Part shown: piece after piece, positions 4,133-33,298 of the stretch | Layout of the letters: every line of letters starts with the position of its first letter | Position numbering within the stretch: position 1 is the first letter of the stretch | From: an uncultured Clostridia bacterium | Lineage (GTDB): Bacteria > Bacillota > Clostridia > Oscillospirales > Acutalibacteraceae | DNA: 34,544 nt | Reading direction: 5' to 3' | Assembly (NCBI GenBank): GCA_944384855.1 | Contig: CALWUY010000043.1 | Span: forward strand, 1-34,544 | Made by a program: the position numbers and the translations under genes | Notes under the pieces: generated by a model | What the model was told of the DNA's origin: nothing | The model's database searches: none | What the model saw: only the letters and a program-made list of their open reading frames with translations

Positions 4133-4148
4133 AAGAATAGCTTCACTT

Positions 4149-6713: not shown

Positions 6714-6727
6714 TTTGCCCTCCGCCG

Positions 6728-8845: not shown

Positions 8846-8860
8846 TTTTCCTTCCCCTCC

Positions 8861-10627: not shown

Positions 10628-10667
10628 CCCGTAAAACTCCTTTTTTGATCGGTTGCAGAAATAAAAA

Positions 10668-13442
10668 TTATTCTTCCGTTTTTTCAAACTCCGCAATCTT
10701 ACGACTGATTTCTTCATTAAGCTCCTTAACATTTCTTATCAGTGCTCTTGAGGAATCCTCTGAAAGTGAATAGGCACTGTTAAATGAAAAATCAAGGGTT
10801 CGTGTTATATAATAACTTCCCGGTATCTGAGAAATCGTGTTGATATTTTCCCATTGTTTGCTTATAACTTTGAACTCTTGTGCTGACCACGGAAATCCTT
10901 TCACGACATCCAGATTCGCGGATGACTGCCTTGCTGCGGCACCCATCACCTTTTCCATCTCTATGCCGAAATTGATCTGCGTATCGGTATCGGTCCACCA
11001 TTTAAGGAAATCCCATGCAGCCTGCTTATCAGTAGTTGTGCGCAACATAACAGCACCTGTTCCGCTCGCTATTACGCTGTTATTTATACTGCCGTCGGCT
11101 TGTTTCATACCGGGAACAGACGTAAAACCCCATAGACCTTCTATTTCCGGAGCAAAAAGATAAAGTTGATTATACATTGTATACGGTACAATCCCTAAAG
11201 GCATATCCCCGCTTTTAAAGCGGTTGGCAAAGGAAAATTCAACCGGAAGATTATAGTCCGTATAAAGCTTCAGTGTTTTGGCAAAAGCGTCTATTGACTC
11301 AAAAGAATCAAGAACCGAAGCGTTCTGCTCTTTGTTGTAGTATTCCCCTCCGCTCTGGTAAAGCATAAGGTTGAACATATCCGTCCATGTTACGCCTACA
11401 GTAAGATTATTCTTTTGAAGCAACGCTACCGCTTCATAAAACTGATCCCATGTTTCTGGTATCTCAATACCTAAGTTGTCAAAGATATCTTTTCGGTAAA
11501 ACATAAGAGGAAAATCAAAACTTTCCGGCAAAGCGTAAACCGCACCTTTGTAACTGAACGGAATAAGCGCAGACGGATGGAAGCGTTCCGCAACCGTCTC
11601 AAAATCCTCAAGCTCAGTTAAATCCACTACTGCGCCTCTTATAGCGTAGTTAATCGGATCGGCGACCGCCGCGTTAAGATAAATGTCTATGGGAGAACCT
11701 GCCAAAACATTAGGTAAAAGCGCATCTGCCGAAACAAGACTTACCTTTGCCGATATACCCGTTTTTGCGGCATCGTTTTGCGAAAGCTTATCTATTATCT
11801 TACTCTGGTCACGTCCTGTGGCAATCCAAACATTTATCTGTTTTGTATCTCCGCTTTCGTCATCGTAGTCCGACGTAAACGAGGATAGAAAAATTCTGAA
11901 CTTGAACCAAAGATTTTTTAAAAAGCTTTCTTTTTTTCCCTCAATTTGATGATTCTCAGGAATTAAAGTTATACTGTCTATTTGCAGAGGCTGACTTGTA
12001 TATTCGTTTATCCAGCTTCCCAAAGCCGATAAAGTTTCTTTAAATTGAGAAAAATTCTGTGCTATTTTATCTGTTCTCTGCGACATTATATTCAAAATAT
12101 CGGCAAGTTTGTCAAGGGTTACCGTGCTGCTGCCGGAGCCCGAGGAAAGTTCTTTCAGACCAGTCGATATTTCCTCAAGTTCATCGGATTTCTTTTCAAA
12201 ATCTTCCAGTACGTCGGGAATAAGTTTCTCAAACCCGTAGTTACGGTAAATATCCGGAGAAGATCCGGTGTAGAACAAAATTTTGAGATAATCTTCATTA
12301 AGGTCACTCAAAATGGATGATATCCGTCTTAAGTATTCCGACATATCCCCCAATACCGCCTCAAGTGCGATTTCATGTTCGCCTTCACTTAAATAAAACA
12401 GCAGTTCCTCTTTTTCTGAAGAAACAGTGTAATTTTCATAGCTTTCGCTGAACGGAAATCGTATTACTTCTGCTTCTTTGAAAGGCACGGCGCCGTCTAT
12501 CATTATTTTTCTGCTTGAGACCGAGCCGGAGTTGACCGACTGTTTTGCATAAAGAGATATTTTATAATATCCGCTTTGTTTGACATCTACTTTCCACGAA
12601 ACCCACTGCCCGATCTTGCTGAAATTAGAACCGACAGTGTTAAGCAGCAGGCTTGATGCGCTGTTAGGAGTTACACTTGAGCTTGACCGGTCGCTTGCCG
12701 GTACGATTGTGCAATCTGATTTTCGGTATATTTTCTCAGCTTCTATTTTTATCGGATCGGCGTTTTCACTGTCTCCCTTACCGTTTTCATTCAGATACTG
12801 CTCATAGGAAATTTCCTCTTCCTGAGGACAAATTTCAATATAGTTCAGTTTGATATCGCTTCTTTCTGAGCTTAGCTTAACCGTATTGTTTCCGGCATTA
12901 AACGGCAGATATAACCCGCCGGAATGATATCCTGAACTATCACTTAAAATATACTCCTGCTCAGGAGTAACTTCTTTTATTTCAGGCTGAATGTCATTTC
13001 CCGAGGTATCTTTTTTAAATTCGTTATCCACTGTTTCAAAAACCCTGCTCAGGTTCAAAGCCGCTGCCTCTTTGTAAGGCACAGCGCCGTTTACTTCGAC
13101 GGTAAGCTCAATGGGAGATGAAAACAGGCTGTCGCCTGTTACGGCGGTATATCCGATTTTAAGACAATACAGTCCGCTTTGGGCAACCGTTACCGCAACA
13201 TCAACCGACTTGCCTTCCTCAAGTAAAGCTCCGTTTAATTCCACACGGGCTTTTTCGGAAGGTTTTTCAAGTTCAGAAACTTCCGCAAGCCACTCGTCGT
13301 ATCCCTTAAGGTCCCATATTTGTGAAACCTCATTGCCAGACGGAAGTGTGCTAGGTTCAGTTCCGTAAACAACCTGAGACAGTATTGTTAATATAACAGT
13401 CAGCACCAACAGCAAACTTAAATTCTTCTTAAGCGATTTCAT
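10668..13442 (-). CDS. Giant extracellular solute-binding protein with N-terminal jelly-roll-like domains
   Basis: This 924-residue protein is about twice the length of a normal family 1 sugar-binding protein. A signal peptide or membrane anchor (about residues 1-27) lacks a lipobox cysteine. Two beta-rich domains follow (about 40-205 and 229-365). Both contain the phrase (M/V)E/IDGAVPFKEA-like sequence (VEVNGAVPYKEA and MIDGAVPFKEA), so they are repeats, perhaps sugar-binding. A helical stretch rich in charged residues (about 404-480, DVLEDFEKKSDELEEISTGL) may form a coiled coil. The solute-binding domain occupies about 537-895, with QINVWIATGRDQSKI at its start and LPESFDFPLMFYRKDIFDNL inside. 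AAAGGCGG lies 7 bases before ATG. It opens the third block and presumably feeds permease pair 2. Confidence 0.86.
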   Translation of the reverse strand: MKSLKKNLSLLLVLTVILTILSQVVYGTEPSTLPSGNEVSQIWDLKGYDEWLAEVSELEKPSEKARVELNGALLEEGKSVDVAVTVAQSGLYCLKIGYTAVTGDSLFSSPIELTVEVNGAVPYKEAAALNLSRVFETVDNEFKKDTSGNDIQPEIKEVTPEQEYILSDSSGYHSGGLYLPFNAGNNTVKLSSERSDIKLNYIEICPQEEEISYEQYLNENGKGDSENADPIKIEAEKIYRKSDCTIVPASDRSSSSVTPNSASSLLLNTVGSNFSKIGQWVSWKVDVKQSGYYKISLYAKQSVNSGSVSSRKIMIDGAVPFKEAEVIRFPFSESYENYTVSSEKEELLFYLSEGEHEIALEAVLGDMSEYLRRISSILSDLNEDYLKILFYTGSSPDIYRNYGFEKLIPDVLEDFEKKSDELEEISTGLKELSSGSGSSTVTLDKLADILNIMSQRTDKIAQNFSQFKETLSALGSWINEYTSQPLQIDSITLIPENHQIEGKKESFLKNLWFKFRIFLSSFTSDYDDESGDTKQINVWIATGRDQSKIIDKLSQNDAAKTGISAKVSLVSADALLPNVLAGSPIDIYLNAAVADPINYAIRGAVVDLTELEDFETVAERFHPSALIPFSYKGAVYALPESFDFPLMFYRKDIFDNLGIEIPETWDQFYEAVALLQKNNLTVGVTWTDMFNLMLYQSGGEYYNKEQNASVLDSFESIDAFAKTLKLYTDYNLPVEFSFANRFKSGDMPLGIVPYTMYNQLYLFAPEIEGLWGFTSVPGMKQADGSINNSVIASGTGAVMLRTTTDKQAAWDFLKWWTDTDTQINFGIEMEKVMGAAARQSSANLDVVKGFPWSAQEFKVISKQWENINTISQIPGSYYITRTLDFSFNSAYSLSEDSSRALIRNVKELNEEISRKIAEFEKTEE

Positions 13443-19100: not shown

Positions 19101-22100
19101 TTATCTGAACGCGCTGCCAGATGTCTTCACGCCCGATGCAATCTGATATTTAGGGCTGCCGTCTATAAGATTGCCGAATGAAGTTACTGATTTTGTGCCT
19201 TTCTCGGCAATTATATCACCCATCGAACGGGTTCTTACAATAAGGCCTGACGCATTGACATTACCGCCCGTTGCCAAAATCGGGGCTTTGCCTGCCTGGA
19301 AGAAATATCCGCCGGCAATATTGACATTACCGCCGTCCACACGGATTGAAGCGTCATTCATCAGCCATGGACAGATATTGAAGATATTAAGTGTGCCGGT
19401 AAAATTTTTGTCAGCTACAACAGCTGTGGAAGTATAAGGATCGGAACTATATGAACCTATACACTGCGGATCAATAATTGTCACCTTGCTGTCGCCTGTA
19501 ATATAGATATCGTTTACCGAATAGTCTTGGCCGAAACCTATAATATAAAGCTCCGCGCCGTCTATATACGCACCTCTGTACGCACCGAAAGCAGCCTGCA
19601 TAAAGCTTACTTCATTAGTACAGTCACCAAAGTAGAAAAAAGTTGCGGTTTCATGCAGATGAGTCATTAAAGGTCCGGTCCAGTCACCGCTGAACTTGTT
19701 TGGATTAAATCCGGTAGACCACATTTCACCCGGGTTAGTGTGAGCATTTAATAACACACCGCCGTCAGAACCGCCGCCAATGCTTATACCTCTGTTAAAG
19801 GTGAAGAAATTAAGACTTTCTATGTAGTGATTATCACATTTGTAAGAGTTAAAGTCGGCAATACTCCAACCGCCCACTACAGTTGTATTAATGATATAAC
19901 AATCCTTGCCTGTTGCCTTAATTGAAGTGGCATAAGGACCTATGGTTTCCTGAGAAACCTTATCGTACACAACCGACAGACCTCTGATACCTGCCGATGG
20001 CTCAAGTGTAATAAGCGCTTCTGCATTCTCTTTGCCCGCTCCGTAATCGGTGAGCAAAGTGCTGAACGGAATTTCGGAATTAATGTAATGGAAATAGTCA
20101 TTAGCTCCGACAAGCTCAACGCCCGATTTGATTATTATCGGGGTTTCAATCCTATAAACGCCTGCCGGAATATAAACCTTTCCGCCGCCGGCAGCAGCCG
20201 CTTCATCAATAGCTTTCTGAATTGCAGCACCGATTTCAGGCTGTTCTCCTTGCGGAATTGCTACGGTGAAAAGCTGCATTTTGGCAGGCGCCTTATCCTG
20301 ATAAGCTCTGCGCGAATCTGCCGCTTTATACTCATCGGTCAAAAGCTCTATAGACTTATCGTCAGAATTATTTTCAATGTATACAGGGCTTTCAGTCTCT
20401 TTTTTAACCTTAAGTTCCCCTGAATTTGCCGTGCAATTGAGTAATTGGGTTTCATCGACGGTATTTAGAATTTCAACGTGATTTGAGCCGCCGCTGAAGG
20501 TGGAATTCATGACCGCTACCTTGCCCGACTTAACATAAAGGGGCGCTTCTGCATTCTCATCTGTAACGCTGAAGGAGCAGTTCTGAAGCGTCATATAAGA
20601 ACTGCCTAAATAGCTGACGGCATATTTGCCTGTACTCTCAAAAGTAATGGTATTTCCGCTGAAGCCCGAAGCTGCATTTTCCCCTACAAGCAACGCGACC
20701 GGATCTTTACCGCCGTTTGCCTTAAGCACGCCGTTGGTAAGCTGACCTCCGTAAGGAACGTCACCTTCTATATACATACAAACATTGCAGTCTGTGATGT
20801 TGAAATTGTAAATTCGGCCATAAAGTGAAGTGACATACATCCCTACATTATAACCCTCGATTTTCATATCAGCAACATAATGAAAATCAATCTTCCCGAG
20901 AGAAAATCCTATACCGTAGGTAATCAGCCAATTTTTCAGGATTTCCTCTTTCGGGGTTCCCTCAAGACCTGAACCTAACCAGAATTTCGGGCTGAAATCA
21001 AAATTTTGCTGACGGTCAGAGTCGGACGCCTTACCTGACATATATCCCACATGAAGCGGCGTACCGTAAATATTTTTTACCATTTGCTGATAATGGGCAT
21101 TGTCATAGCTGTCATGAGTGATGCCGTCGTAAGAATTTACAAGATATATATCCTCTATTGCAACATTTATCGGATCGCTAATACCAATAGTATAATTATA
21201 AGGAGTTGCCTCGCCCGAGGCTAAGGTCTGTTCGGGATACCAAATAGTTAAACCCTTAACACAGCTTCCCTGTCGCATAGTTATAAACATACTTTTGCTG
21301 CCGTCTGCAATAGTAGAAACCTTAGCGGCAAGGATTGTGCCTTCGGCTTTAGGATTTTCCCTTGACGGAGCATTAAAATCTCCTAAAAGGGTTACGCCTG
21401 AGGGAATAACAAAATCTTGTGTGAGTAAATAAGTGCCTTTTGGGGCATAAATTACGCCGCCTTTGCCTTCGAGCGAACGAATTGCCGTACGGAAAGCCAA
21501 GCTGTCATCAGTCTTACCGTCTCCTGCAGCGCCGAAATCCTTAACATTTGCTTCAATTATACGCCCATTTGACGTCTCATAATCGGTAGCCAGAAGTTGA
21601 GGATACTTCTGTTCAGAAATAGTATTTTCACTGATGCTTACCGAATGCAGCCACATGGTAGAAGCAGTATCCAGTTTTACGGTGAAATGCGATTTTGCAT
21701 CAGTGCTGAATTTAACCTTTTCCGTTTTAATCGACATACCGCCCCACACCGAACCTCCGGCCATTTCGTATGAGTTTTCCACATTGCCCGAAGCGCCTTC
21801 GTATCCGAGTTTAAATGTCTTCGAACTCGATTCATAGTATTCAAGCTTTATAAAAAGCGACTTGCCGTCCAGCTTTTCGCAATAGTCATTGTCGAGCTTG
21901 AAACTAAGTGTATTTTCTTTGCTGATTTTAGAATACTCTTTGCCGAGCACTGCTCCGTCATTTAACTTATCGGTACCGTTAATGTCAACTGTCATTCCGT
22001 TTTGCCTGATATTTTCACCAAATAAAACTATCGGACAATCAGATGATAAAATATCTTCGCCTTTAACGTCAGTTGAGGGCTCGTCAGATTTTTTCCCACA

Positions 22101-22172
22101 ACCCGAAATAGCTGCAGTCAGTAATATAACTACTGATAAAAGCACCGAGAGCAAACGAAAAGTGTTTTTCAT
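19101..22172 (-). CDS. Pectate-lyase-fold lipoprotein (extracellular paralogue)
   Basis: This protein is 1023 residues from the ATG at 22172. A longer frame reaches 22223, but GAGAGG lies 9 bases before the later ATG, which opens a good lipoprotein signal peptide: a lipobox ending ISGC with Cys25. A beta-rich region (about 35-170) precedes two Pectate_lyase_3-type domains. The first opens with VKDFGAAGDGKTDD near residue 207, the second near residue 634 (AIQKAIDEAAAAGGGKVYIP). Stretches such as GVTLLGDFNAP and KGLTIWYPEQ closely match the cytoplasmic paralogue at 13789-16284. It is predicted to be tethered outside the membrane and to cut or bind polysaccharide there. The catalytic type is not certain. 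Confidence 0.88.
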   Translation of the reverse strand: MKNTFRLLSVLLSVVILLTAAISGCGKKSDEPSTDVKGEDILSSDCPIVLFGENIRQNGMTVDINGTDKLNDGAVLGKEYSKISKENTLSFKLDNDYCEKLDGKSLFIKLEYYESSSKTFKLGYEGASGNVENSYEMAGGSVWGGMSIKTEKVKFSTDAKSHFTVKLDTASTMWLHSVSISENTISEQKYPQLLATDYETSNGRIIEANVKDFGAAGDGKTDDSLAFRTAIRSLEGKGGVIYAPKGTYLLTQDFVIPSGVTLLGDFNAPSRENPKAEGTILAAKVSTIADGSKSMFITMRQGSCVKGLTIWYPEQTLASGEATPYNYTIGISDPINVAIEDIYLVNSYDGITHDSYDNAHYQQMVKNIYGTPLHVGYMSGKASDSDRQQNFDFSPKFWLGSGLEGTPKEEILKNWLITYGIGFSLGKIDFHYVADMKIEGYNVGMYVTSLYGRIYNFNITDCNVCMYIEGDVPYGGQLTNGVLKANGGKDPVALLVGENAASGFSGNTITFESTGKYAVSYLGSSYMTLQNCSFSVTDENAEAPLYVKSGKVAVMNSTFSGGSNHVEILNTVDETQLLNCTANSGELKVKKETESPVYIENNSDDKSIELLTDEYKAADSRRAYQDKAPAKMQLFTVAIPQGEQPEIGAAIQKAIDEAAAAGGGKVYIPAGVYRIETPIIIKSGVELVGANDYFHYINSEIPFSTLLTDYGAGKENAEALITLEPSAGIRGLSVVYDKVSQETIGPYATSIKATGKDCYIINTTVVGGWSIADFNSYKCDNHYIESLNFFTFNRGISIGGGSDGGVLLNAHTNPGEMWSTGFNPNKFSGDWTGPLMTHLHETATFFYFGDCTNEVSFMQAAFGAYRGAYIDGAELYIIGFGQDYSVNDIYITGDSKVTIIDPQCIGSYSSDPYTSTAVVADKNFTGTLNIFNICPWLMNDASIRVDGGNVNIAGGYFFQAGKAPILATGGNVNASGLIVRTRSMGDIIAEKGTKSVTSFGNLIDGSPKYQIASGVKTSGSAFR

Positions 22173-22215
22173 TATATCAATCCTCTCATAGTGTTTGTGA
22201 TTTAAAGTATTTTCG

Positions 22216-22289
22216 GGGCGCAAAAACCCTTTTAGGCTCCTGAATTATGTCTTAATACACCGAAAGTGTCATAAAAACAGTTCGCGCCC
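22216..22289 (-). other. Structured intercistronic region after the solute-binding protein gene
   Basis: In the 235-base gap between the binding protein and the pectate-lyase-fold lipoprotein, GGGCGC (22216-22221) can pair with GCGCCC (22284-22289). The enclosed bases contain a small hairpin, ACAC (22257-22260) with GTGT (22266-22269). Such structures after binding-protein genes often stabilise their mRNA. I see no strong U-tract and no good promoter in the gap. Confidence 0.35.
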
Positions 22290-22407: not shown

Positions 22408-23784
22408 TTAGTTAAACATCTCATCTATGAGAGCCTGTATTCCCGCAGCATTGCCTTCGGTATACAGTGAGTATGTTGTATCAGTAAATATCGGCATTGC
22501 AACAGCACGCATCGTGCCGATGGAAATTTGCTCGTTAATGTTAAGCATAAGATTGGCATAATCAAGGCTGAATGTCGGAACTATATAATCGTTCATCATC
22601 TCAATATAAAGGTCGCGGTCAACAAAATTTGCAGACCCGTCTTGTATCTGAAGACTTTGGAAATCTTTCGACTTATCAGCCATTTTCTTAAGCACCTTAG
22701 CCGCGAGCTCGGAGGTTTCAGATATCGCGGGAATGGTTATAATATTAGTGTTGTGATACTGCGCGGATATATAATCACTTTCTTTATTGTACTTAGGATA
22801 TGGAATAATACCTATTTCGAATTTACCGCTGTCCTCACTGTCCGAAGTGTATCCGCCAAGCAGGAACAGGCAATTACCGTCCAAAAAGAAATTCTGTTGA
22901 GTTATACCGTCCATATCTCCGGGATAGAACATACCGTCATTTACTGTAAATGTAGTTTTGAACTTTTGCAGTGCAGTAACAGCGCTTTTATCGAGCATAT
23001 TGTATACAAGACGTCCGTCGGCATCTTTCTTGATCATCGGGACACCCGCTGCTAACCAAACAGGCACTAAGCCGTCATACGCCTGTGAAGTAGAACCCAA
23101 ACGGTCATTAGCGTCAAACTTACCGTCGTTGTTCATATCCTTCACAGCCTTTAGACTGTACTCACGGAATTTATCCCATGTCCATTCGCCTTTGCGGACA
23201 AGTTCCGCGGGATCGGTAAGACCCAAAGTCTTAATCATATCTCTGTTGTATAAACAACTCATTCCGGCATATCCCATAAGGCCATTGGAACCAACACCGT
23301 AAATACCGCCTTTAACACTTGCAATATTTGTTATTACGGAATTCCAGCGGTCAGAATTCACTTCCAAACTCTCAAGACCTGATAAATCCATAAGCAGATC
23401 CTGTGCCGCGAGGGGGCCGAAGCTGAAAAGCTGATGAATCATTAAATCAGCAAAACCGGTATCTCCGTTGGTTATAGAGGTCTGGGCAATAGAAGTGAAT
23501 TCTGTCGGAGAATAATAATCGATTTTTATGCGTATATTTTCCTCTCCCTCAATTTCAGTTATCATCTGACGGATTGCCTCGCCGTATTCCGTATCCTGAT
23601 TCCATGAAAATTCATCTTCATAATAAGCCGCCACAGCGATTGTAAAGGTTTGAGCGTTATCATCAGGCTCTTTTACAGAAGTTTTACCGCCATCCGATGT
23701 AGTTACTCCATTATCACAGGCGCCTAAAGTGAACAGCATAGCGAAGATTAATATAATCGCAAATATACTTTTGATTTTTTTCAT
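22408..23784 (-). CDS. Sugar ABC transporter solute-binding lipoprotein (family 1)
   Basis: This 458-residue lipoprotein has a lipobox ending TLGAC with Cys23. The mature protein has the family 1 binding-protein pattern: TFTIAVAAYYEDEF at its first strand, LMIHQLFSFGPLAAQDLLMDLSGL in the middle and NRDMIKTLGLTDPA later. A calcium-type loop DMNNDGKFDAND lies near residues 227-238, a feature seen in some relatives. ATG follows AAAGGCCGG located in the end of the preceding gene, whose stop is one base away. It presumably delivers oligosaccharide to one of the two permease pairs encoded further along. No permease gene directly follows it. Confidence 0.92.
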   Translation of the reverse strand: MKKIKSIFAIILIFAMLFTLGACDNGVTTSDGGKTSVKEPDDNAQTFTIAVAAYYEDEFSWNQDTEYGEAIRQMITEIEGEENIRIKIDYYSPTEFTSIAQTSITNGDTGFADLMIHQLFSFGPLAAQDLLMDLSGLESLEVNSDRWNSVITNIASVKGGIYGVGSNGLMGYAGMSCLYNRDMIKTLGLTDPAELVRKGEWTWDKFREYSLKAVKDMNNDGKFDANDRLGSTSQAYDGLVPVWLAAGVPMIKKDADGRLVYNMLDKSAVTALQKFKTTFTVNDGMFYPGDMDGITQQNFFLDGNCLFLLGGYTSDSEDSGKFEIGIIPYPKYNKESDYISAQYHNTNIITIPAISETSELAAKVLKKMADKSKDFQSLQIQDGSANFVDRDLYIEMMNDYIVPTFSLDYANLMLNINEQISIGTMRAVAMPIFTDTTYSLYTEGNAAGIQALIDEMFN

Positions 23785-23785
23785 A

Positions 23786-26700
23786 TTATTTACCGGCCTT
23801 TCTTTTTTTCTTAATAAGTATTATGGCTGTAGCCGCACCGCCTGCAAGCACCGCAAGTACTGCGACAGAAATACCTATCGCCAAAGCCATCTTTGTGAAA
23901 GCAGATACGTTAGCCTTATTTGAACCGTCGTTTGCGGATGCTAAATTCTGCTCGAGTTTGCCAAGCACTTCATCATCAAGTAAAACATCCGAAATGATAT
24001 AGGTCGCAAGGCGCGTAGGCTCATCCCAAATAATCTCTTTCTTGGCCTTATTATCAATACGGGAAAGCTTTCTGAACGATCCGTTAACATCCAGTCTGTA
24101 GAGATAAAATTCATCCATTGATGTAAGATTATCTTTCTTGAGATGCACTGTTACAGTATCGCTGAATAGATACTCACGTGTATCCTTATAAAATGTCGGG
24201 TCAAGAATAATGGTATTCTTATTATCCGCCTCAAACTCTTTAGCAACGATCTCAGGTATAATGCTCATATCTTTGGTTTCAACTACCAACTCGCCGTAGG
24301 CGGGAATAACATCCGGCTTGGCTGTAAGGTAAAGTTCATAACCGGTATTATTTGTCGTAATAACTGATTTTTCAATCTTAACCTCGCCGGACTTCGTAAA
24401 GCACATATTATCTATACGGAAGGTGATTTCCTTGCCGATATAGTTTTGCGCCGTGCCGGTATAAATCCGCAGAAAGTTAATTTTAGTGAAATCCACATCA
24501 CTTTCGCCCTTCCAATCAACAGTTTGACTTGCAAAATCAAACGAAAGCTTGACGTGATTCCAACCCTCGTTAAGATTCAGGTCACCTAGCCCCCAGGAAA
24601 TTTCGTTTTGATCCCATGTACCTGAACTTGTAAGCTCAATAGCACCGCCTGCAAATTCAAAGAAATCAGGATCGGAAACATATAAATCAAATTCTAACGC
24701 GTTATAGCCAGTAGAATCTACCTCGTTGCCTTCACCGGTACGGTAAACCCATACAAAGTTTCCTGTATCGACTGAAAATTTAAGAGATGACATACCTTGA
24801 GTTTTTTCTTCCAGATCCATTTCAAAGGATGTAAATACAGTCTCACGGTTCAAACCGAACATTTCTTCAAAAGGCTGGAACATCTTGGCGCCCTTTATTG
24901 TAGGCTCATAGCTTATCGGAAGAGCTGTAGTATCATCTGCGCTTACGCGAATATCATCGAGATATACCGTGCTTACCGGAAGGTCAGCAACCGGACCTTC
25001 TCCTAATTTTAGAGTGAAAGAAATAATCTTTGTTAAATCAGGTGTTCCCTGCTTTCTGGCTCTTGAAAACGGTAATACTATTTGATTCCAACCGTTTTTA
25101 ATTACCTGTGATGTCCAACCCTGCCATATAAAGCAATCTTCTTCTAATTCATGTGAGCTGCCTATGCGGCAGTATGAGCCGGTGTTTTTCTCGGCAAGTT
25201 CCTTAAGTTTCACATAGTCGTCTGTATAAATCCAAAATCTGATAGCGCCGGCGGTGCCGTTTTTGGTCACGTCTTTTATATTAAAGGTACGCTCCAAACT
25301 CTCGCCCCAAAATCCCATTCTTATAAGCCAGCCTTCATTAAAACCGGCTTCGGTTACAAATGTTGTGGCCTTATAGGATTTTTTACCGACCTTTGAAATA
25401 TCATTTGAAATACTGGCAGGCCATGCCTTTTCGCCGTATTCGTCATTCAAAAGGAGCAGCGGATCATCGTTAGAAGGTATTTCGGCAACATCAGCAAAGC
25501 TCTTATCGTATGCAGCGGCAATACGGATCATACGTATGTGCAGATCCTTGTCACTCTTTCCGTCTGACAGACCCAAACTAAACTGATTGAGATTATTGAG
25601 TTCTCCCTTATGCCATGAGCCGAGACTTATTTTAACCTCACACCATTTTCCCGGCACTACGCTTTCAAAACCTTTGGAAACATCAGCGGATGAAATCGGA
25701 TGATTTACACCGTTCGAATCAACAAATGAAATAGTAATTTTATTTTTATAATCTGCCCAAGCGCCATTATCTTCAATGAAAACATTAAATGTAACAACAT
25801 TGCAGTCAGTAAAACTTACCGGCTTATAAGAAGAAACTTCACTCCTGATAACATTTACGAAATTATAAATTTTATCCTCGGTCGGAAGATTATCGGTACG
25901 CGGCGTAAAGTTTATTGTCCTGTCAAAATTCATCGCATGATAATCGGAATTAAGACCGGGATGAACAATCGGCCATTCAGAACCGTCAAGCTTGGCAAAA
26001 ACAATTTCTTTTGTTTCCTCTTTATCGTCATCATCAGGCAAAACCGGGTCGGGCGACAAATCAGGAAAATCGGTAGTATACTCCGCACAAACATCAGTAA
26101 CGGTAATATGAAGAATCTTATCCGAGAATCCTTCACCTAAATAAAAGCTCAATCCGTTTACGGCAGATAAATTCTTGCTGCCAATGCTTCTGAGGCTTAT
26201 TGTGATTTTAGTGGGCTGACCCACTACAACATTTTTAAATGCCGCCTGAACGTCAGCTGAGGCTATCTGCAAACTGTCTCCTTGGGCAGTAGCCACTGAA
26301 ATATTAAGCTTATCTTTATATGTCTCCCATGCCCCGTTATCTTCTACGGTAAGCATAAATGTAAGCACATTATGCTTGGAGGCATCAATCGGTTCCATGC
26401 CTGCGGCATCTCTTAAAACATTAATATACGTTTTGACGTCACCGTTAGGGATAAAGGAAATGCGACGATCTAAATGAGTCGCGTCATAATCAGGGTTATT
26501 GTACTGACCGGAGAGTCCGGGATGACATATAGGCCATTCAGAACCGTCAAGCTTGGCTATAACGGCTGTCTTAGGCTTGGCAGGTCCCTCGTCTTCCGTT
26601 GCTATAACAGCTAAATCATCAATATAAATCGTAATAGAGGGAGAACCGTCAGGCAGTTTCATATATAATGTATCAATTTTTGTTGCGTCAGGCTGATTTG

Positions 26701-28306
26701 CTTCAATGCCGCAATCAGCAAACTTAAGTGTAATTTCATTCCAACCGCTTACAGTCACCTGATCCAACCAGTTTTCCCAACGGAAATAATTTCCGTCTAT
26801 GTTTTGGCAATCGCCGATTTTTATAATATTCGGAGTAGTAAGTGCCTTTATCTCCTCAAGATCCGCAATATCTTCAATATAAAGCCAAAAATGCAGTGCA
26901 CCGGAAGTGCCGTTTTCCGTTACAGCGGAAATATCCTTCTTAGGCAGCGCTTTAGAACCCCAGAAGCCCGCTCTGATAATCCAGCCTTCATATTCATATG
27001 TATTTACCTTAAGAGAATGAGTTCCTACTTTAGCAATCTCATCACTGACATTTGTTTCGATGAAATATCCTCCTTCTCCGGCTTCGTCATCTATAATCGC
27101 AACTCTGTCGGTAGCAGGCGGAATAATCTCACCGCCCGGTTCTTCCTGCCCGGGAGGCTCGGTCTTGACCGAAGGGTCGGCGCTGACTCTTAAATGGTCG
27201 ATATACATTTCAATCGAAGCAGAGCCGTTAGGGAGTTTGAAATTAAGAGTATCTATCTTAGTAAGATCGGGAGCTGTGCCTTCAACAGTGCAATCTGCAA
27301 ACGGAAGAACAACTTCGTTCCAACCGTCTTCAGTTACACTGTCAATCCAGTTATCCCAAACATAATAGTTGCCGCTCGCACTATGACAGTCGCCTATTTT
27401 AGCGACAACCTTATTGCCGCTTGCCTGGCGCTGTTTAATCGAATCAAGTACTGATACTTTTTCAACATACATCCAAAAACGGACAGCGCCGTCGGTGCCG
27501 TTATTTGTAAGACTTTTTATATCCTTCGGTTCAAGCGCGGGGGAACCGAAAAATCCGGCAATAATTATGTTAGAGCTTGTTGTGATTTTAAGAGAACGTT
27601 CACCGACAGCAACCTGTTCACCGACAGTATTTACAGCGGGTTTTCTTGTCTCTCCTGCCTCATCGTCAATAAGAAGCACATCTTCCGGAAGCACTTCTGC
27701 AACCATATTCTTTATTTTAATACCTAAATTCTTATCACAAGTACTGCCGGAAACCGAGAAAATGAATTTTTTGACACTTTTAACGGCATCCTCACCAACG
27801 CCTGAAAGCGGCAGACGTACCTTAACCTCTGTTCCGGGTTTTACAACCGAAAGCGCAGCCAGTACATCTGCCTGTGGAATTTCAACGGTTCCTGCATTTG
27901 TATCCAACTCAATTGATATATAATTTCTATAGCTTTCAAATGCTCCGTTATCTTCGACGGTAAGCATAAAACTCAGCACATCGTAGCCGGTTAAATCGGC
28001 GGCTTCCTCACCCATATCGGTTCTCGAAACAGTAACCGAAGTAAAAACTGTATTTATATTGGGCGTTTCTGTTCCGCTGCCGACAAAATTGAGTTTACGG
28101 TCAAGATTCATTGAATGGTAATCATTATTCATACCGGGATGAACTACATTCCATTCAGAACCGTCAAGTTTAGCGAATACAAACGGCTCGCTCGGCTTCA
28201 CAGTATCGGCTAACACTGAAGTTAAATTAACCGAAATAGCAGAAAATGCTATTATAAACACAAGCAAAACAGCCACAATCCGCTTTGGAATTGCAAGATT
28301 CTTCAT
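23786..28306 (-). CDS. Membrane-anchored multi-module surface protein (A/B modules)
   Basis: This 1506-residue exported protein has a signal peptide (about 1-33). Two beta-rich module types recur. Type A opens with AKLDGSEW and HPG...LDR (near residues 42, 583 and 770) and includes LTVEDNGA followed by Y(K/R). Type B opens with LIDDEAGE (near 205, 400 and 950) and ends in SIxxYIDDL-like strands, with GALxFWxYxED and GWNEIxLxFADC inside. The order is A-B-B-A-A-B. A further jelly-roll-like domain (about 1140-1295) and a C-terminal beta domain precede a membrane helix (about 1475-1496) and a basic tail KKKRKAGK. There is no LPXTG motif. GGAGG precedes ATG. The modules may bind carbohydrate; no catalytic motif is recognised. 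Confidence 0.82.
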   Translation of the reverse strand: MKNLAIPKRIVAVLLVFIIAFSAISVNLTSVLADTVKPSEPFVFAKLDGSEWNVVHPGMNNDYHSMNLDRKLNFVGSGTETPNINTVFTSVTVSRTDMGEEAADLTGYDVLSFMLTVEDNGAFESYRNYISIELDTNAGTVEIPQADVLAALSVVKPGTEVKVRLPLSGVGEDAVKSVKKFIFSVSGSTCDKNLGIKIKNMVAEVLPEDVLLIDDEAGETRKPAVNTVGEQVAVGERSLKITTSSNIIIAGFFGSPALEPKDIKSLTNNGTDGAVRFWMYVEKVSVLDSIKQRQASGNKVVAKIGDCHSASGNYYVWDNWIDSVTEDGWNEVVLPFADCTVEGTAPDLTKIDTLNFKLPNGSASIEMYIDHLRVSADPSVKTEPPGQEEPGGEIIPPATDRVAIIDDEAGEGGYFIETNVSDEIAKVGTHSLKVNTYEYEGWIIRAGFWGSKALPKKDISAVTENGTSGALHFWLYIEDIADLEEIKALTTPNIIKIGDCQNIDGNYFRWENWLDQVTVSGWNEITLKFADCGIEANQPDATKIDTLYMKLPDGSPSITIYIDDLAVIATEDEGPAKPKTAVIAKLDGSEWPICHPGLSGQYNNPDYDATHLDRRISFIPNGDVKTYINVLRDAAGMEPIDASKHNVLTFMLTVEDNGAWETYKDKLNISVATAQGDSLQIASADVQAAFKNVVVGQPTKITISLRSIGSKNLSAVNGLSFYLGEGFSDKILHITVTDVCAEYTTDFPDLSPDPVLPDDDDKEETKEIVFAKLDGSEWPIVHPGLNSDYHAMNFDRTINFTPRTDNLPTEDKIYNFVNVIRSEVSSYKPVSFTDCNVVTFNVFIEDNGAWADYKNKITISFVDSNGVNHPISSADVSKGFESVVPGKWCEVKISLGSWHKGELNNLNQFSLGLSDGKSDKDLHIRMIRIAAAYDKSFADVAEIPSNDDPLLLLNDEYGEKAWPASISNDISKVGKKSYKATTFVTEAGFNEGWLIRMGFWGESLERTFNIKDVTKNGTAGAIRFWIYTDDYVKLKELAEKNTGSYCRIGSSHELEEDCFIWQGWTSQVIKNGWNQIVLPFSRARKQGTPDLTKIISFTLKLGEGPVADLPVSTVYLDDIRVSADDTTALPISYEPTIKGAKMFQPFEEMFGLNRETVFTSFEMDLEEKTQGMSSLKFSVDTGNFVWVYRTGEGNEVDSTGYNALEFDLYVSDPDFFEFAGGAIELTSSGTWDQNEISWGLGDLNLNEGWNHVKLSFDFASQTVDWKGESDVDFTKINFLRIYTGTAQNYIGKEITFRIDNMCFTKSGEVKIEKSVITTNNTGYELYLTAKPDVIPAYGELVVETKDMSIIPEIVAKEFEADNKNTIILDPTFYKDTREYLFSDTVTVHLKKDNLTSMDEFYLYRLDVNGSFRKLSRIDNKAKKEIIWDEPTRLATYIISDVLLDDEVLGKLEQNLASANDGSNKANVSAFTKMALAIGISVAVLAVLAGGAATAIILIKKKRKAGK
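25971..26557 (-). repeat. Exact 26-bp repeat marking two A modules
   Basis: The same 26 bases occur at 25971-25996 and 26532-26557, 561 bases (187 codons) apart, where they encode the KLDGSEWP signature of the second and third A modules. Eighteen of these bases recur at 28151-28168 in the first A module. This identity at DNA level suggests module duplication within the gene. Confidence 0.7.
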
Positions 28307-28708
28307 ATAAATCCTCCGCTCTTATTTTGTGTGACAGCACTCCGGTCTGTCACAACTTCGTTCACCGTTTTTTACTACGGCTCACTTAGATTTTTTCAAA
28401 GCATCAGCATTGCAAAAATCCCCTATTGCGCCAAATTTAAAATTCGGCTTCAAAATTTTTTCAACCCGCCAAACTGAAAATTCAATTTTGCGGGAATGGT
28501 GGAGGTAGGCTCTGATACAGTACGCCAAACAGCTTTTACCGGATATAAAACCTTAACCACATCAAAGCATAATATCTGTATTTTCAAATATAGTTCGAAT
28601 ATTATGCTCAAAAGTATTTTCCTTAAAATTTAAAATTTATATTTCAGAACGTACCCGACTAATAATTAGTCGGGTACACCGCATCAATTAAACATTCAAC
28701 ACTGATTT
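28307..28708 (-). other. 402-base gap with several hairpins before the anchored-protein gene
   Basis: No gene is seen here. Inverted repeats are dense: 28331-28337 with 28347-28353 (GTGACAG and CTGTCAC), an imperfect hairpin at 28465-28494 (CCCGC with GCGGG), 28567-28575 with 28599-28607 (GCATAATAT), and the strong palindrome at 28651-28677. On the minus strand TTGAAA, 17 bases and TTTAAA give a weak promoter candidate near 28430-28460. The gap may hold a partial terminator and a leader that adjusts expression of the downstream gene. Confidence 0.45.
28651..28677 (-). terminator. Strong palindrome after the dockerin gene
   Basis: Two perfect 13-base arms (GTACCCGACTAAT and its complement) surround one base, about 30 bases after the dockerin gene stop. 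As RNA this gives an 11-bp stem and 5-base loop. The tail on the minus strand (GTTCTGAAAT) is not U-rich, so it may act as a partial terminator or RNA stabiliser. Confidence 0.55.
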
Positions 28709-31639
28709 TTACTTTACGCCGAATAAAATCTTACGTAATGCTATTAAATCGTTTGCATTAAACAGACCGTCATAGCAAACATCAAAGGCTCTCTGCATGG
28801 GGTCATTATCAAGCAGCGCTTTCTTTAGAACTATAAGGTCTAAAATATTACGTGCGCCGTCGTTATTGGCGTCACCGTACACTACAGAAGCAGCGCGGCT
28901 GTTAGATATGCGTATATCGTCTATATAGAAAGGATTCTCTCCCAAATCAGAACCGCAGGTCGAATAAATTTCTTCATAGATACCTTTACCGTCGGATGCG
29001 ATAATCTGAGGCATTCTGATATCAATATGGGTGATATTAGTATAATCAGGATTACCCGATATAGTTGAATTACCGAAATCAAGGATTATTTCGTTCCAGC
29101 CTACCTTTGTCACCTGGCTTACCCAGCCGTCCCATTTACGGTAATCTGTAATATCAACCTGATCCGCTGCACCGGTACCCATTCTGACAAAAGATTTCAC
29201 GCCCGTATAACTGCCGTCATCCAATGCTGTTTCGGCGTATGTAAGCGCCTGAAGAATGGCGTCGTTTTCCACATAGAACCAGAAACGCAGTGTACCGTCC
29301 TTACCGTTCGCGGTAGCTGTAGAAATATCTTTTGACAGCGGACTTGCCCCATAGAAGTTTGTGAAGACTAACCAGCCTTCATTTACAAGCTGCGCTCCGC
29401 CGGGAGCATTCGGATCAACCGTATATTTAAGCGAATTAACACCTGCTATAGAATTGCTGTTAGTAGATCTTACACGGCCGTAATTGGCGTCTCCGTTTCC
29501 GCTGATGTTAAGATTTTCATCATCAATAAGTATAACATCATCACCGGCAGCGGCAATATCGGTGGAATAATAAGTATCTGCAGTTACCTTGAGGTTATCT
29601 ACCGCAACTATTACATCAGACGAACCGTTACCAATCTTAAAGCGCATCGAGCAAATAGCTGTCCAATCGGTGTTAGGTTTGGCTTCCGGAGTGAACGGAA
29701 GAACAACCTCGTTCCAACCGGACCTTGTCAGCTGAGATGTCCATCCGGTCCAGAGAGCACCCCAGGGGCCGTCAGGATTACTTGAATCAATATTCTTATC
29801 ACCGATTGCTATTATATCGGTATAAGCCTGACAATTATGGAGATCATTAAGGGTATCATTATCTTTAACCCAGAACCAGAACCGAAGTGCGCCTTTGGTA
29901 CCGTTTGCGGTAACCTCAGATATATCCTTAGGAATTTCAAATAACGAACCGCCCCAAAAACCTGCCTGAAGGACAGTTGTAGTATATGTTTGATTTACGT
30001 ATGAATATGTTCCTACTTTAGCGATATCAATATCAGGCGCGCCCATAAACGGTGCTACCTCGCCGTTTTCATCATCAAGAAGAATAACTTCATCATTGTT
30101 ATCCATAGTAGCATAAATTTCATCGATCTTAATATGAAGATCAAGATCACAGGTGCTTCCGGCAACTTTGAATGTGAAATTGCTCGATTCTGTAAGAGCG
30201 CCCTTGTTAATGTCGTCAAGGTCAAGCTTCACAGAACCCTTAATACCCGGAACAACACCGGAAAACGCCTTTTCAACGGCAGCTTTTGAGAAAATCTGAC
30301 CGTCTATGGAAATCTCAAGATAATCTTTATAGAAATCCCAGGCGCCGTTATCCTCAACCCAGAAATTAAATGAAAGCTGATCATAAAGAGATATATCTAT
30401 GCGAGATCCCCAGTTATTAGCGGTTCTCTCAACATATACCCAATCTTTAACATCAGGGCGAATATCAGAGGTGAAATTAAGATAGCGGTTTAATGTAGCA
30501 ACACTTTCATCGGTATCTAAACCCGGATTTACTATCGGCCAATCCCAGTCTAACTTTGCATATTCCAAAGGCTCGGTAGGCAGAACTTCAGCTTTAACCT
30601 TGGTTACCGTAATCAACAAAGAACTATCACCAGTGTAATCCGCAAGCTTGAATTCAACCATATCTGCCGTATACAGCCTGGTTGTATCCATACCATCAAG
30701 GCTTATCGCTACCTTTTGGGTTTTTCCCGGAACAATATCGGCAAAAGCCGCTTCAAGATTCGCGTCCGGAATAGGCTGAGAATCGATAGTAATCTTAAAA
30801 TAATCTTTTAATTCATCCCACGTATCGCCCGCGGTGAAATTAAATGTAAGAACATCAGCACCCGAAATGTCTACTGCCGGATATTGCTTTTCCTGACAAT
30901 TGGTTCTGATGAAATTTACAAACGGAGCATCGGCGCTAAGAGACCAATTCTCAATGAGCCAACCTCCGCCCGGATTGACTATCGGCCACTCACCGCCGGT
31001 AAGTTCAGCTAAAGTTACCGGATAAACCTTTTCGGGAGAAAGCTCGGCAAATATCTGAGAAACAGTTATGTGCAGATTATCTGCCGTAGGCGGATTTTCC
31101 GCCTCAACTTTAAATTCTATATGATATATATTTGTCATTGCGGTTTTATCTAAACCGTCAAGGCTTATTCTTACTCTTGATGCTTTGCCCGGAACCACAT
31201 CTGCAAAAGCCGCTTTTAAATTAGCGTCCGGGATAGCAATTTTTTGGTTGTCCTGAGAAATCAAACTGATTTTAAAGTAATCCTTGTAAACAGACCATGT
31301 TTCGCCGACTGTGAAATTGAATACCAAGTCGTCAGCGCCCGAAAAATCAAGACCGGTTGCAGGATTTTCGGCTCGTGTAGCCGTGACATAATTATAAATA
31401 TAGTTACCCGGGTCTTCAACAAAATTCAAGTCACGATCTATTCTTTGACGGGATGTGCCTGTTCCGCCGTCGTTAAGTATAGGATTTGCCGTCGGAGGCC
31501 ATTCCGTTCCGTCTAACTTAACAAACTGTGCCGGATAGGTGGTTTCGGCAGAAACTGCCGTTGGTACTGCGATTACGCAAAAGTTAACTAAAAGCGCAAT
31601 ACCAAGAATAACCGAAAGAACTTTTTTAAATGATTTCAT
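28709..31639 (-). CDS. Dockerin-bearing multi-module extracellular protein (A/B modules)
   Basis: This protein is 976 residues from the ATG at 31639, chosen over an upstream ATG at 31678 because AGGAGG lies 7 bases before it and it opens a clean signal peptide (about residues 1-31). Three A modules follow (about 37-200, 205-355, 360-525; LDGTEWP, TGGEWPIVNPG, KLDWDWPIVNPGL), then two B modules (about 530-700 and 715-905; ILLDDENGE, ILIDDENLN). A C-terminal type I dockerin (about 912-975) has two calcium loops, DANNDGARNILD and DVCYDGLFNAND. Dockerins dock onto cohesins of a scaffoldin, so this protein is probably part of a cellulosome-like complex. Position 3 of the second loop is Cys instead of the usual Asn or Asp. 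The A/B modules are of unknown function, perhaps carbohydrate-binding. Confidence 0.88.
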   Translation of the reverse strand: MKSFKKVLSVILGIALLVNFCVIAVPTAVSAETTYPAQFVKLDGTEWPPTANPILNDGGTGTSRQRIDRDLNFVEDPGNYIYNYVTATRAENPATGLDFSGADDLVFNFTVGETWSVYKDYFKISLISQDNQKIAIPDANLKAAFADVVPGKASRVRISLDGLDKTAMTNIYHIEFKVEAENPPTADNLHITVSQIFAELSPEKVYPVTLAELTGGEWPIVNPGGGWLIENWSLSADAPFVNFIRTNCQEKQYPAVDISGADVLTFNFTAGDTWDELKDYFKITIDSQPIPDANLEAAFADIVPGKTQKVAISLDGMDTTRLYTADMVEFKLADYTGDSSLLITVTKVKAEVLPTEPLEYAKLDWDWPIVNPGLDTDESVATLNRYLNFTSDIRPDVKDWVYVERTANNWGSRIDISLYDQLSFNFWVEDNGAWDFYKDYLEISIDGQIFSKAAVEKAFSGVVPGIKGSVKLDLDDINKGALTESSNFTFKVAGSTCDLDLHIKIDEIYATMDNNDEVILLDDENGEVAPFMGAPDIDIAKVGTYSYVNQTYTTTVLQAGFWGGSLFEIPKDISEVTANGTKGALRFWFWVKDNDTLNDLHNCQAYTDIIAIGDKNIDSSNPDGPWGALWTGWTSQLTRSGWNEVVLPFTPEAKPNTDWTAICSMRFKIGNGSSDVIVAVDNLKVTADTYYSTDIAAAGDDVILIDDENLNISGNGDANYGRVRSTNSNSIAGVNSLKYTVDPNAPGGAQLVNEGWLVFTNFYGASPLSKDISTATANGKDGTLRFWFYVENDAILQALTYAETALDDGSYTGVKSFVRMGTGAADQVDITDYRKWDGWVSQVTKVGWNEIILDFGNSTISGNPDYTNITHIDIRMPQIIASDGKGIYEEIYSTCGSDLGENPFYIDDIRISNSRAASVVYGDANNDGARNILDLIVLKKALLDNDPMQRAFDVCYDGLFNANDLIALRKILFGVK

Positions 31640-31677
31640 AAATTTTCCTCCTGTAATTTTTTTATTTTTGGACAGCA

Positions 31678-31701
31678 TTAGTTTAAAGCGGCACGATACA
31701 C
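31678..31701 (-). CDS. Possible 7-residue leader peptide
   Basis: A very strong AAAGGAGG site (around 31712-31719) is followed, 11 bases later, by GTG at 31701 and the short frame VYRAALN ending in TAA at 31680-31678. Its stop overlaps an ATG (TAATG) that opens the extended frame of the dockerin gene. It could couple or attenuate translation, or the site may be unrelated to a peptide. Confidence 0.3.
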   Translation of the reverse strand: MYRAALN

Positions 31702-32072: not shown

Positions 32073-32101
32073 ATTATAGCATTTTAGCTTTAAATTGTCA
32101 A
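32073..32101 (-). promoter_or_regulatory. Consensus sigma-A promoter of the dockerin operon
   Basis: On the minus strand TTGACA (32101-32096), a 17-base spacer and TATAAT (32078-32073) match the consensus at every position. The start would be near 32066. No other strong promoter is visible between here and the dockerin gene, so this probably drives the whole first block. Confidence 0.8.
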
Positions 32102-32120
32102 TATAAAACCATTATTTTTG

Positions 32121-32172
32121 CCAATTTTAACAAATAATTGGTACTATATAATTAGTATCTATGATACCAATT
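32121..32172. promoter_or_regulatory. Cluster of operator half-sites between the divergent promoters
   Basis: Half-sites of the 32006-32023 palindrome recur: CCAATT (32121-32126), AATTGGTAC (32136-32144) and TACCAATT (32165-32172). The last overlaps an imperfect palindrome, TTAGTATC (32152-32159) with GATACCAA (32163-32170), one mismatch. It ends 6 bases before the -35 box of the regulator gene. Its centre is about 146 bases from that of the perfect operator, close to 14 helical turns, so looping is possible. Confidence 0.6.
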
Positions 32173-32176
32173 TTTA

Positions 32177-32205
32177 TTGACATCAAATGCAGAATGCGTT
32201 ATAAT
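32177..32205 (+). promoter_or_regulatory. Consensus sigma-A promoter of the regulator gene
   Basis: TTGACA (32177-32182), 17 bases and TATAAT (32200-32205) match the consensus fully. The start would be near 32212, only about 10 bases before the ATG at 32222, so the mRNA leader is very short. GGTGAT (32213-32218) is the only ribosome-binding candidate. The adjacent half-sites suggest autoregulation. Confidence 0.8.
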
Positions 32206-32221
32206 ATATTTCGGTGATGAT

Positions 32222-33298
32222 ATGGAAAATAATACTAAATCAGTCAGAAAATATGAACTTGTATCCCATGAAATTTTAAAAATGGCAATTGCAAACCACC
32301 AACATGCCGGCGACCGTCTTCCCTCAGAAAGAAAACTGCAGACGGAATTGGGCGTCAGCAGAAGTACCGTTCAGCATGCTTTAAAAAAGCTGTCGGAACA
32401 GGGACAAATAAAAAGCAGTATCGGTTCGGGAAATTATTGGCAAATCAATCCTTTTCAGAGTGATTCAAAACACTATATACCTTTGCTGATAACTATTAAC
32501 GATTCTTCGCCTTTTTTTTCGGAGATCATATCTGGTGTAAAACAATTTTTCAAGGAAAATAATATGTTTACTTCCATATATATTACAGATTTTAATCAGG
32601 ATCAGGAAAAAAACCTTATCAACGATTTAGTGCGGCAAGGGTACAGTGTAATTGTTGTCTATTCCAACGAGATATACGACCTGGCGAGTTTTTACAGAGA
32701 ACATATGCGTAACGGCATACAGTTCATATTTATAGATCATATATATTGCGATATAAGCGGTGACCTTATATGCAGCGATAATATTAACGGCAGCTTCCTG
32801 ACAACAGAACATCTTATAAAAAAAGGTCATAAACGTATTGCTTTCGGTTTATCACACATTTTTTCCGGCAGTATGATCAGTTCCACCAATGACCGTTATT
32901 TGGGATATCAAAGCGCCCTTAAACAGTACGGTATACCTTTTAATCAGGATTATATTATCGACTTTACATATCCGTCGGATGACTACTCAAACATAAAAAT
33001 TCAGCTCGAAAAACTATTTGAAAATGAAAATCCTCCAACAGCTTTTTTTGCACTTAATAATTATTTCGCTTCAATATTCAGCGAGGTAATAGTGCAAATA
33101 CCTTCAGCGCCCAAAAATATCGAAATTATCGGCTTTGACCGATACAATATAGATTTTTACAATAATTTCCCCTGCGCAGTGCTTCAGCCTTTTTATGATA
33201 TGGGATATGCCGCCGCAGAACTTGCATTCCGTCGCCTGAACGGTGAGAGAGGCGCTTACATTACTAAAACTCTCCCTATTAAATTCGGTGTAAAATAA
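32222..33298 (+). CDS. AraR-like GntR/LacI chimeric transcriptional regulator
   Basis: This regulator is 358 residues from the ATG at 32222. A TTG at 32177 is in frame but lies in the -35 box of the gene's own promoter. The N-terminal GntR winged helix (about residues 8-72) shows AGDRLPSERKLQTELGVSRS and STVQHALKKLSEQGQI, with the wing in IKSSIGSGNYW. The rest (about 80-358) is a LacI-type sugar-binding domain: IPLLITINDSSPFFSEIISG, GHKRIAFGLSH and the region AFFALNNYFAS through EIIGFDRYNI. This is the architecture of AraR, which represses arabinose genes until sugar binds. The nearby palindromes fit such a regulator. It probably represses the dockerin operon and itself; the inducer is unknown. 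Confidence 0.92.
   Translation: MENNTKSVRKYELVSHEILKMAIANHQHAGDRLPSERKLQTELGVSRSTVQHALKKLSEQGQIKSSIGSGNYWQINPFQSDSKHYIPLLITINDSSPFFSEIISGVKQFFKENNMFTSIYITDFNQDQEKNLINDLVRQGYSVIVVYSNEIYDLASFYREHMRNGIQFIFIDHIYCDISGDLICSDNINGSFLTTEHLIKKGHKRIAFGLSHIFSGSMISSTNDRYLGYQSALKQYGIPFNQDYIIDFTYPSDDYSNIKIQLEKLFENENPPTAFFALNNYFASIFSEVIVQIPSAPKNIEIIGFDRYNIDFYNNFPCAVLQPFYDMGYAAAELAFRRLNGERGAYITKTLPIKFGVK

Follow-up and report, generated by a model that had tools for sequence, protein, structure and literature searches.

The window analysed here is the full 34,544-nt stretch of contig CALWUY010000043.1 (GCA_944384855.1) from an uncultured Clostridia bacterium. Two intact reading frames on its minus strand encode proteins assembled from the same repeated modules, termed A and B. 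The dockerin-protein gene (28709..31639, minus strand; identified from the ORF, Pfam and module profiles) has the order signal peptide, A-A-A-B-B, dockerin. Its longest ORF runs over 28709-31678 (989 aa); the likely start is 31639, the second Met (MKSFKKV...), which makes a better signal-peptide start than 31678. The signal peptide region (31544..31639) was placed at the hydrophobic N-terminus, the only hydrophobic stretch of the protein. It is followed by A modules dA1 (31031..31534), dA2 (30575..31021) and dA3 (30095..30571), assigned with the A profile, and by B modules dB1 (29567..30094) and dB2 (28889..29542, with a long insertion inside), assigned with the B profile. The protein ends in a type I dockerin (28712..28882): PF00404 matched residues 934-984 over nearly the full profile, scoring 26.2 bits (cut-off 22.9).

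The gene of the membrane-anchored protein (23786..28306, minus strand; ORF and module profiles) encodes 1506 aa in the order signal peptide, A-B-B-A-A-B-C, linker, transmembrane (TM) segment. A signal peptide region with a hydrophobic N-terminus (28205..28306) precedes mA1 (27683..28186), mB1 (27167..27682), mB2 (26588..27109), mA2 (26069..26569), mA3 (25499..26008) and mB3 (24926..25465), again placed by the A and B profiles. The membrane-proximal jelly roll, module C (24383..24895), leads into a linker domain (23894..24382). C, linker and TM segment together were 39.5% identical to those of the anchored protein of another locus in the same genome, on contig C35. The C-terminal anchor (23810..23893) is a hydrophobic stretch followed by the basic tail KKKRKAGK, and no LPxTG was found at the C-terminus. 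All of these features lie on the minus strand.

The A and B modules are real repeats. Pairwise identity was 28-44% among the six A copies and 32-51% among the five B copies. The profiles built from these modules returned six strong A copies (186-240 bits) and five B copies (215-264 bits) in the two proteins, scores that are high by construction since each profile was searched against its own members. The two proteins matched each other by blastp at E 3e-74 and 5e-74, which argues against chance similarity. The profiles thus recovered the order A-A-A-B-B-dockerin and A-B-B-A-A-B-jelly-roll-TM that the first-pass annotation had claimed.

The locus around the pair fits the description of a Gram-positive polysaccharide utilisation locus. 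One base downstream of the anchor gene lies a gene for the solute-binding protein (SBP) of a sugar ABC importer (22408..23784, minus strand; PF01547, E 1e-11), and beyond it a conserved neighbour, a beta-helix protein of pectate lyase/rhamnogalacturonase-like type (19101..22223, minus strand; PF12708, E 3e-27). The downstream order continues with GH38, a second PF12708 protein, a CBM35/CBM6-like SBP, two permeases, an NHL-TPR-Yip1 protein, a DUF5696 protein, two more permeases, ThuA and a Gfo/Idh/MocA oxidoreductase. Of these four permeases, two scored below the Pfam cut-off. Upstream, a GntR-HTH/LacI-type regulator is encoded divergently (32177..33298, plus strand; a mechanical ORF whose true start is probably further in). 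A Firmicute polysaccharide utilisation locus (gpPUL) has been defined by a degrading enzyme, a transport system and a regulator (PMC5320581), and the window holds all three: GH38 and beta-helix genes, ABC permeases with SBPs, and the GntR/LacI-type regulator. In the second SBP (10668-13442), CBM35/CBM6-like sequence scoring below cut-offs precedes the SBP domain, and a 957-aa SBP on contig C66 of the same genome is 37% identical to it. The block from 2301 to 13442 (SBP, permeases, NHL-TPR-Yip1, DUF5696) recurs collinearly on that contig, at L092. A search of an open-access literature library found no paper naming DUF5696.

A perfect promoter-like TTGACA-17-TATAAT with TG stands before the dockerin gene (32073..32101, minus strand), and the interval between dockerin gene and regulator (32073-32205) carries two perfect TTGACA-17-TATAAT sites, one per strand. 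Dockerin and anchor genes are separated by 402 bases. Within this gap, just 3' of the dockerin gene, the sequence can form a hairpin of 12 perfect pairs that lacks a T run (28651-28677), with a fold z of -3.4 and equal stability in 2 of 200 shuffles. The hairpin is perhaps an RNA-processing or attenuation site.

To what family the modules belong was examined with profile searches. Against Pfam and NCBIfam at curated cut-offs the window modules gave no family, and A and B gave none against PDB sequences. A first B/C iteration had taken in two A fragments and was therefore repeated with A regions masked; the masked profile took in 71 domains. The window jelly roll joined the B family at 126 bits in the unmasked iteration, and by this sequence comparison B and the membrane-proximal C module form one broad beta-sandwich module family. 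When a 42-row B/C profile was compared with PDB, the best matches were the CBM30 structures 2c24 and 1wmx/1wzx (C. thermocellum; E 2.3e-5), followed by a weak match to PbSGBP-B (E 0.066).

The predicted fold of B agreed with the profile result. The model of mB2 (35 rows; pLDDT 92, pTM 0.88) had 17 PDB fold matches at E<=0.001, 15 of which were carbohydrate-binding modules: six CBM30, three CBM11, two CBM4, two laminarin CBM X584, one CBM8 and one CBM16. The other two were a virus turret and chondroitinase ABC. The best six rows were all CBM30 (TM 0.54-0.59), consistent with the CBM30 beta-sandwich fold. At the level of Pfam families, CBM30 (PF21582) did not match the window proteins at E<=1; it matched 5 of the 42 B/C modules at E<=0.1 (best 0.03), and the whole anchored protein of contig C66 reached 31.3 bits against a cut-off of 27. 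SGBP_B_XBD matched 2 of the 42 modules (best E 0.013), and the dockerin protein of genome G161 matched it at E 8e-4 with 20.0 bits, below the cut-off of 26.4. B is thus best described as remotely CBM30/CBM11-like, with a predicted CBM-like fold. The first-pass annotation had proposed that the modules match no known CBM family, and this stands at curated Pfam and NCBIfam cut-offs but not for the remote relationship of B. Its suggestion of a carbohydrate-binding-like nature is supported for B by profile, model and fold matches, and more weakly for A. Neither a clear non-carbohydrate family nor a fold other than a beta-sandwich emerged from the searches and models.

Relatives of B also occur on enzymes. 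B-like modules were found in five more loci of named genomes (three caecum Clostridia MAGs, a goat-rumen Lachnospiraceae MAG and Niastella), carried by GH5-LamG proteins, a GDSL esterase, a beta-helix protein and two small TM-anchored proteins; on the GH5, esterase and beta-helix proteins they are accessory modules of carbohydrate-active enzymes. Within the family of the window genome, 12 of 250 genomes had B/C modules at E<=1e-5. The known modules closest to B/C, by profile and by fold, are CBM30 (and also CBM11) of C. thermocellum cellulases, yet identity is about 15% and the window modules stay below the Pfam cut-off. Unlike the cellulase modules, those of the window are strung together on proteins without catalytic domains, and their genes neighbour those for beta-helix and GH38 proteins. 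At L055:4943-8758, five B/C-like modules are followed by what appears by eye to be a calcineurin-like metallophosphatase, a region with no Pfam match at E<=0.1, and by a dockerin.

The A modules were far more restricted. No other genome carried A among 250 drawn from the family (E<=0.001) or among 394 drawn from the order (E<=0.01), two draws that overlap. A class-wide search of 391 genomes gave seven short partial matches at E 0.004-0.01, where about four are expected by chance; these were discarded, as was an A-like match at C66:111038 (E 0.16). An A-B tandem genome scan and a viral scan for A found no relative. Among the genomes searched, A is known from the two window proteins only.

A relation between A and B was seen only through the iterated B/C profile, and direct comparison of the A and B profiles gave nothing (probability 0.7%). 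Against the masked B/C profile the A alignment scored 40.4 with a probability of 90%; the best of 100 column shuffles reached 20.1 and a reversed profile 11.5. Masking had lowered the hhalign local probability from 94 to 90. Single A sequences matched weakly (3.1 to 15.4 bits) and in three of six cases barely beat shuffles or reversals: the observed score was equalled by 1 of 200 shuffles for mA3, 2 of 200 for dA1 and 1 of 200 for dA2, and reversed dA2 scored 4.5 against 4.9 forward. The A model (mA1, 6 rows; pLDDT 78, pTM 0.78) consisted mostly of strands with two short helices, and its conserved N-terminal stretch was ill-defined and of low confidence. At E<=0.001 Foldseek gave no PDB match to it, CBM30 structures included. 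The best rows were beta-sandwich proteins, and a CBM was named in 11 of the best 50 (CBM28, 8, 27, 4, 51 and 22 among them), beside reelin, agarases, a complex I assembly intermediate and capsids. With moderate support from profiles and models, the A modules probably represent a distant offshoot of the B/C superfamily. A, B and the jelly roll had been taken as separate things; instead the jelly roll falls into one family with B, and A is its probable far branch.

It could be that only B (and C) bind sugar, and that A serves as a spacer or in some other function, its cleft lost or never present. The divergence of A, its confinement to this locus and the low-confidence modelling of its conserved N-terminal stretch would agree with this. 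Set against it are residues kept in the A loops: Trp12 and Pro17 of the LDGSEWPIVHPG stretch were present in all six copies, and NGAW or NGAF in four of six. Such fixed loop letters, across copies of 28-44% identity, would seem to exceed what a pure spacer needs, and we consider a spacer role for A unlikely, if still worth weighing. If A does bind sugar, it would probably be the first member of a new CBM family.

The arrangement of an anchored protein beside a dockerin protein recurs. In the window genome, the B profile found nine further copies in a gene pair on contig C35: a 771-aa dockerin protein with four B modules and a 1252-aa anchored protein with five B modules, jelly roll, linker and TM segment. 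Gene order there is dockerin protein, (GH4), anchor, SBP and beta-helix proteins, as in the window, with identities of 42% for an SBP fragment, 38% for the beta-helix protein and 39.5% for the anchor C-terminus. Contig C66 of the same genome encodes two module proteins, of 944 and 844 aa, whose dockerin-like tails score below cut-off, an anchored protein of 1589 aa with nine modules, a GH38 detected by blastp with the window GH38, and GH53-like genes below cut-off. Upstream of these lies a seven-gene block (SBP, two permeases, a Yip1/NHL protein, a DUF5696 relative, two permeases) collinear with the window block at 27-58% identity. The pair was also found in G066 (same genus; two loci) and G161 (same family; one locus), where a multi-module protein with a C-terminal TM anchor stands beside module proteins with dockerin tails.

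A search for C-terminal TM segments covered 11 loci and the window; some of these 12 depend on the search through which they were picked. Anchored multi-module proteins were found in seven of the 12 (window, C35, C66, L083, L095, L096 and L100), and six of the seven had a dockerin-tailed module neighbour. The neighbour's dockerin was above the Pfam cut-off in four (window 26.2, C35 33.2, L096 42.9 and L100 24.4 bits) and below it in C66 and L095. Among four dockerin tails in G066, one was above cut-off, two below and one unmatched. No dockerin partner was seen for the anchored pair of L083. This pair (L083:9818-12570) consists of two very similar genes in tandem, each encoding a small protein that combines two B/C modules with a TM anchor; a beta-helix protein and an SBP are encoded nearby. 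Genomes G118 and G068 contain the modules, and no pair was present in the two stretches examined in G118 or in the one examined in G068.

Whether the two proteins of a pair see the same ligand, as the first-pass annotation had suggested, was assessed with a tree of 60 B/C modules from six paired loci (54 distal, 6 membrane-proximal), from which domains of <20 bits or <=80 residues were left out, so that the loci hold more modules than the tree. It is a quick tree and weakly resolved, with 12 of 57 inner branches starred and 29 open. For 40 of the 54 distal modules, the nearest relative outside their own protein lay in the same locus; 1000 label shuffles, which ignore relatedness, gave a mean of 7.8 and a maximum of 20. 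The count was 39 of 54 when membrane-proximal modules were allowed as neighbours. Similarly, a same-locus module of the other protein type was closer than a same-type module elsewhere for 40 of 54. By locus, the numbers were 9/9 in C35, 13/15 in C66, 4/5 in the window, 11/16 in G066b, 3/3 in G161 and 0/6 in G066a, where the contig ends within the dockerin protein and leaves a single module of it for comparison. Membrane-proximal modules behaved differently: none of six was nearest to a module of its own locus, and all six were nearest to another anchored protein. The role label (dockerin or anchored) needed 15 changes on the tree as a raw count. These contrasting patterns suggest that the anchor chassis is inherited across loci while distal modules are shared or exchanged within a locus. 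Such sharing is expected if both proteins must recognise the same ligand, and the likeness of distal modules within loci, a result at the level of sequence, supports one shared ligand per locus.

Sharing of modules would also be favoured if A and B bound each other or themselves, as adhesive units joining two proteins or two cells; the same modules do sit on both partners and are alike within a locus. However, the B fold matches nearly all fall on glycan binders, related modules occur on enzymes, and modules that already linked the two proteins would presumably leave the dockerin without a purpose. We therefore regard self-binding as very improbable and favour a common glycan ligand.

The genome was searched for cohesins, the candidate partners of the dockerin. 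Three cohesin matches were found, one per protein (C54, C53 and C14), and each protein has a membrane-like segment: an N-terminal hydrophobic segment in the 217-aa protein, a start resembling a signal peptide and a hydrophobic C-terminus in the 365-aa protein, and a strong hydrophobic segment near the end of the 492-aa protein. No multi-cohesin scaffoldin was found in this 97% complete genome, a search that divergent cohesins could escape. Elsewhere, cohesins numbered three in G066 and one in G161, both genomes with pairs, and three in G118; none was found in G068 (79% complete). Proteins that combine one cohesin with a C-terminal TM helix have been described as possibly associated with the cell (PMC11557425). 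In Ruminococcus flavefaciens, CttA docks on the single cohesin of the surface-anchored ScaE (PMC5301203).

CttA, as that source presents it, is a close architectural parallel: putative CBMs and a C-terminal dockerin, a single-cohesin anchor on the cell, and a proposed part in adhesion and substrate targeting. It differs in having an X-dockerin dyad, and ScaE in having an LPXTG signal; in the window no LPxTG and no X module were recognised. In the window, moreover, the partner built from the same modules sits in the membrane itself, and the likeness to CttA is drawn at the level of architecture. Together, the single-cohesin proteins with membrane-like segments, the published record of such proteins and the CttA/ScaE parallel make it likelier that the dockerin protein is held than released. 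By sequence and analogy, it is probably held on the cell. The first-pass annotation had described it as released, a view not supported by the three cohesins, which lie in three proteins with membrane-like segments. A variant of that view, in which the protein belongs to a released multi-enzyme complex and brings enzymes to polysaccharide held by the anchored protein, draws on the dockerins of the genome (22 of 28 rows over, or counted over, cut-off), some of which belong to enzymes (one an esterase, another a beta-helix protein), and on the lack of any membrane segment besides the signal in the dockerin protein. With a single cohesin on each of three proteins with membrane-like segments and no multi-cohesin protein found, we judge a released complex improbable.

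Taken together, it is fairly probable that the two proteins form a non-catalytic polysaccharide-capture pair at the cell surface beside the importer. The anchored protein, whose conserved C-linker-TM chassis bears six beta-sandwich modules of types A and B, would be a fixed multivalent glycan holder. The dockerin protein would be a second holder, its five A/B modules brought to the membrane by plugging into single-cohesin proteins. Enzymes with dockerins could use the same cohesins, which would keep substrate, enzymes and importer in one place. The pair would hold one polysaccharide within reach of the importer and of the beta-helix enzymes encoded nearby. Our guess at its identity, a tentative one that may well be wrong, is a pectin-type, rhamnogalacturonan-like polysaccharide, because of the enzyme set: PF12708 twice and GH38 in the window, with GH4, GH53-like and PL22-like enzymes in sibling loci.

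In Bacteroidota, SusD, SusE, SusF and the SGBPs are non-catalytic surface glycan holders encoded beside an importer; they are outer-membrane lipoproteins working with a TonB importer. The window differs in its TM anchor, dockerin and ABC importer, and the likeness lies in a similar putative way of working; the profile match to PbSGBP-B was weak (E 0.066). How polysaccharide is held before import is less clear in Gram-positive gut bacteria than in Bacteroidota. A study of Roseburia and E. rectale loci found nothing closely homologous to Sus and suggested that CBMs carried on enzymes serve instead (PMC5320581). Recurring dedicated, non-enzymatic putative glycan holders, one encoded 1 base from an SBP gene, make the question directly testable. 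Dockerin-borne glycan binders such as CttA and Sas20, and modules of CBM30 type, are already known. Sas20, a component of the cell-surface amylosome complex of Ruminococcus bromii, binds one polysaccharide through two unusual domains (PMC9112005); its starch-binding domains are of another make, and the abstract names no anchored partner with like modules. In the titles and abstract openings covered by a limited, open-access literature search, no paper described an anchored protein paired with a dockerin protein that shares its modules. As far as we found, the A branch, a B branch outside Pfam families and the twin design with module sharing within a locus are new. A broader reading is possible, if somewhat doubtful: that A is a new lineage-confined glycan-binding family, that such twins, encoded beside the ABC importer, play in Gram-positive bacteria generally the part of the Sus surface glycan-binding proteins, and that their distal modules are swapped together. 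If so, a locus would change substrate by exchanging modules in both twins while the anchor chassis stays fixed.

A dockerin gene directly adjoining a cohesin gene was seen at L057:6110-9407, near a contig end: the dockerin protein there has an SH3-like stretch (just below cut-off), and its neighbour is a single-cohesin protein with a membrane segment. In the same genome, L051:4910-5752 encodes a collagen-like protein with long GPQGPQG repeats.
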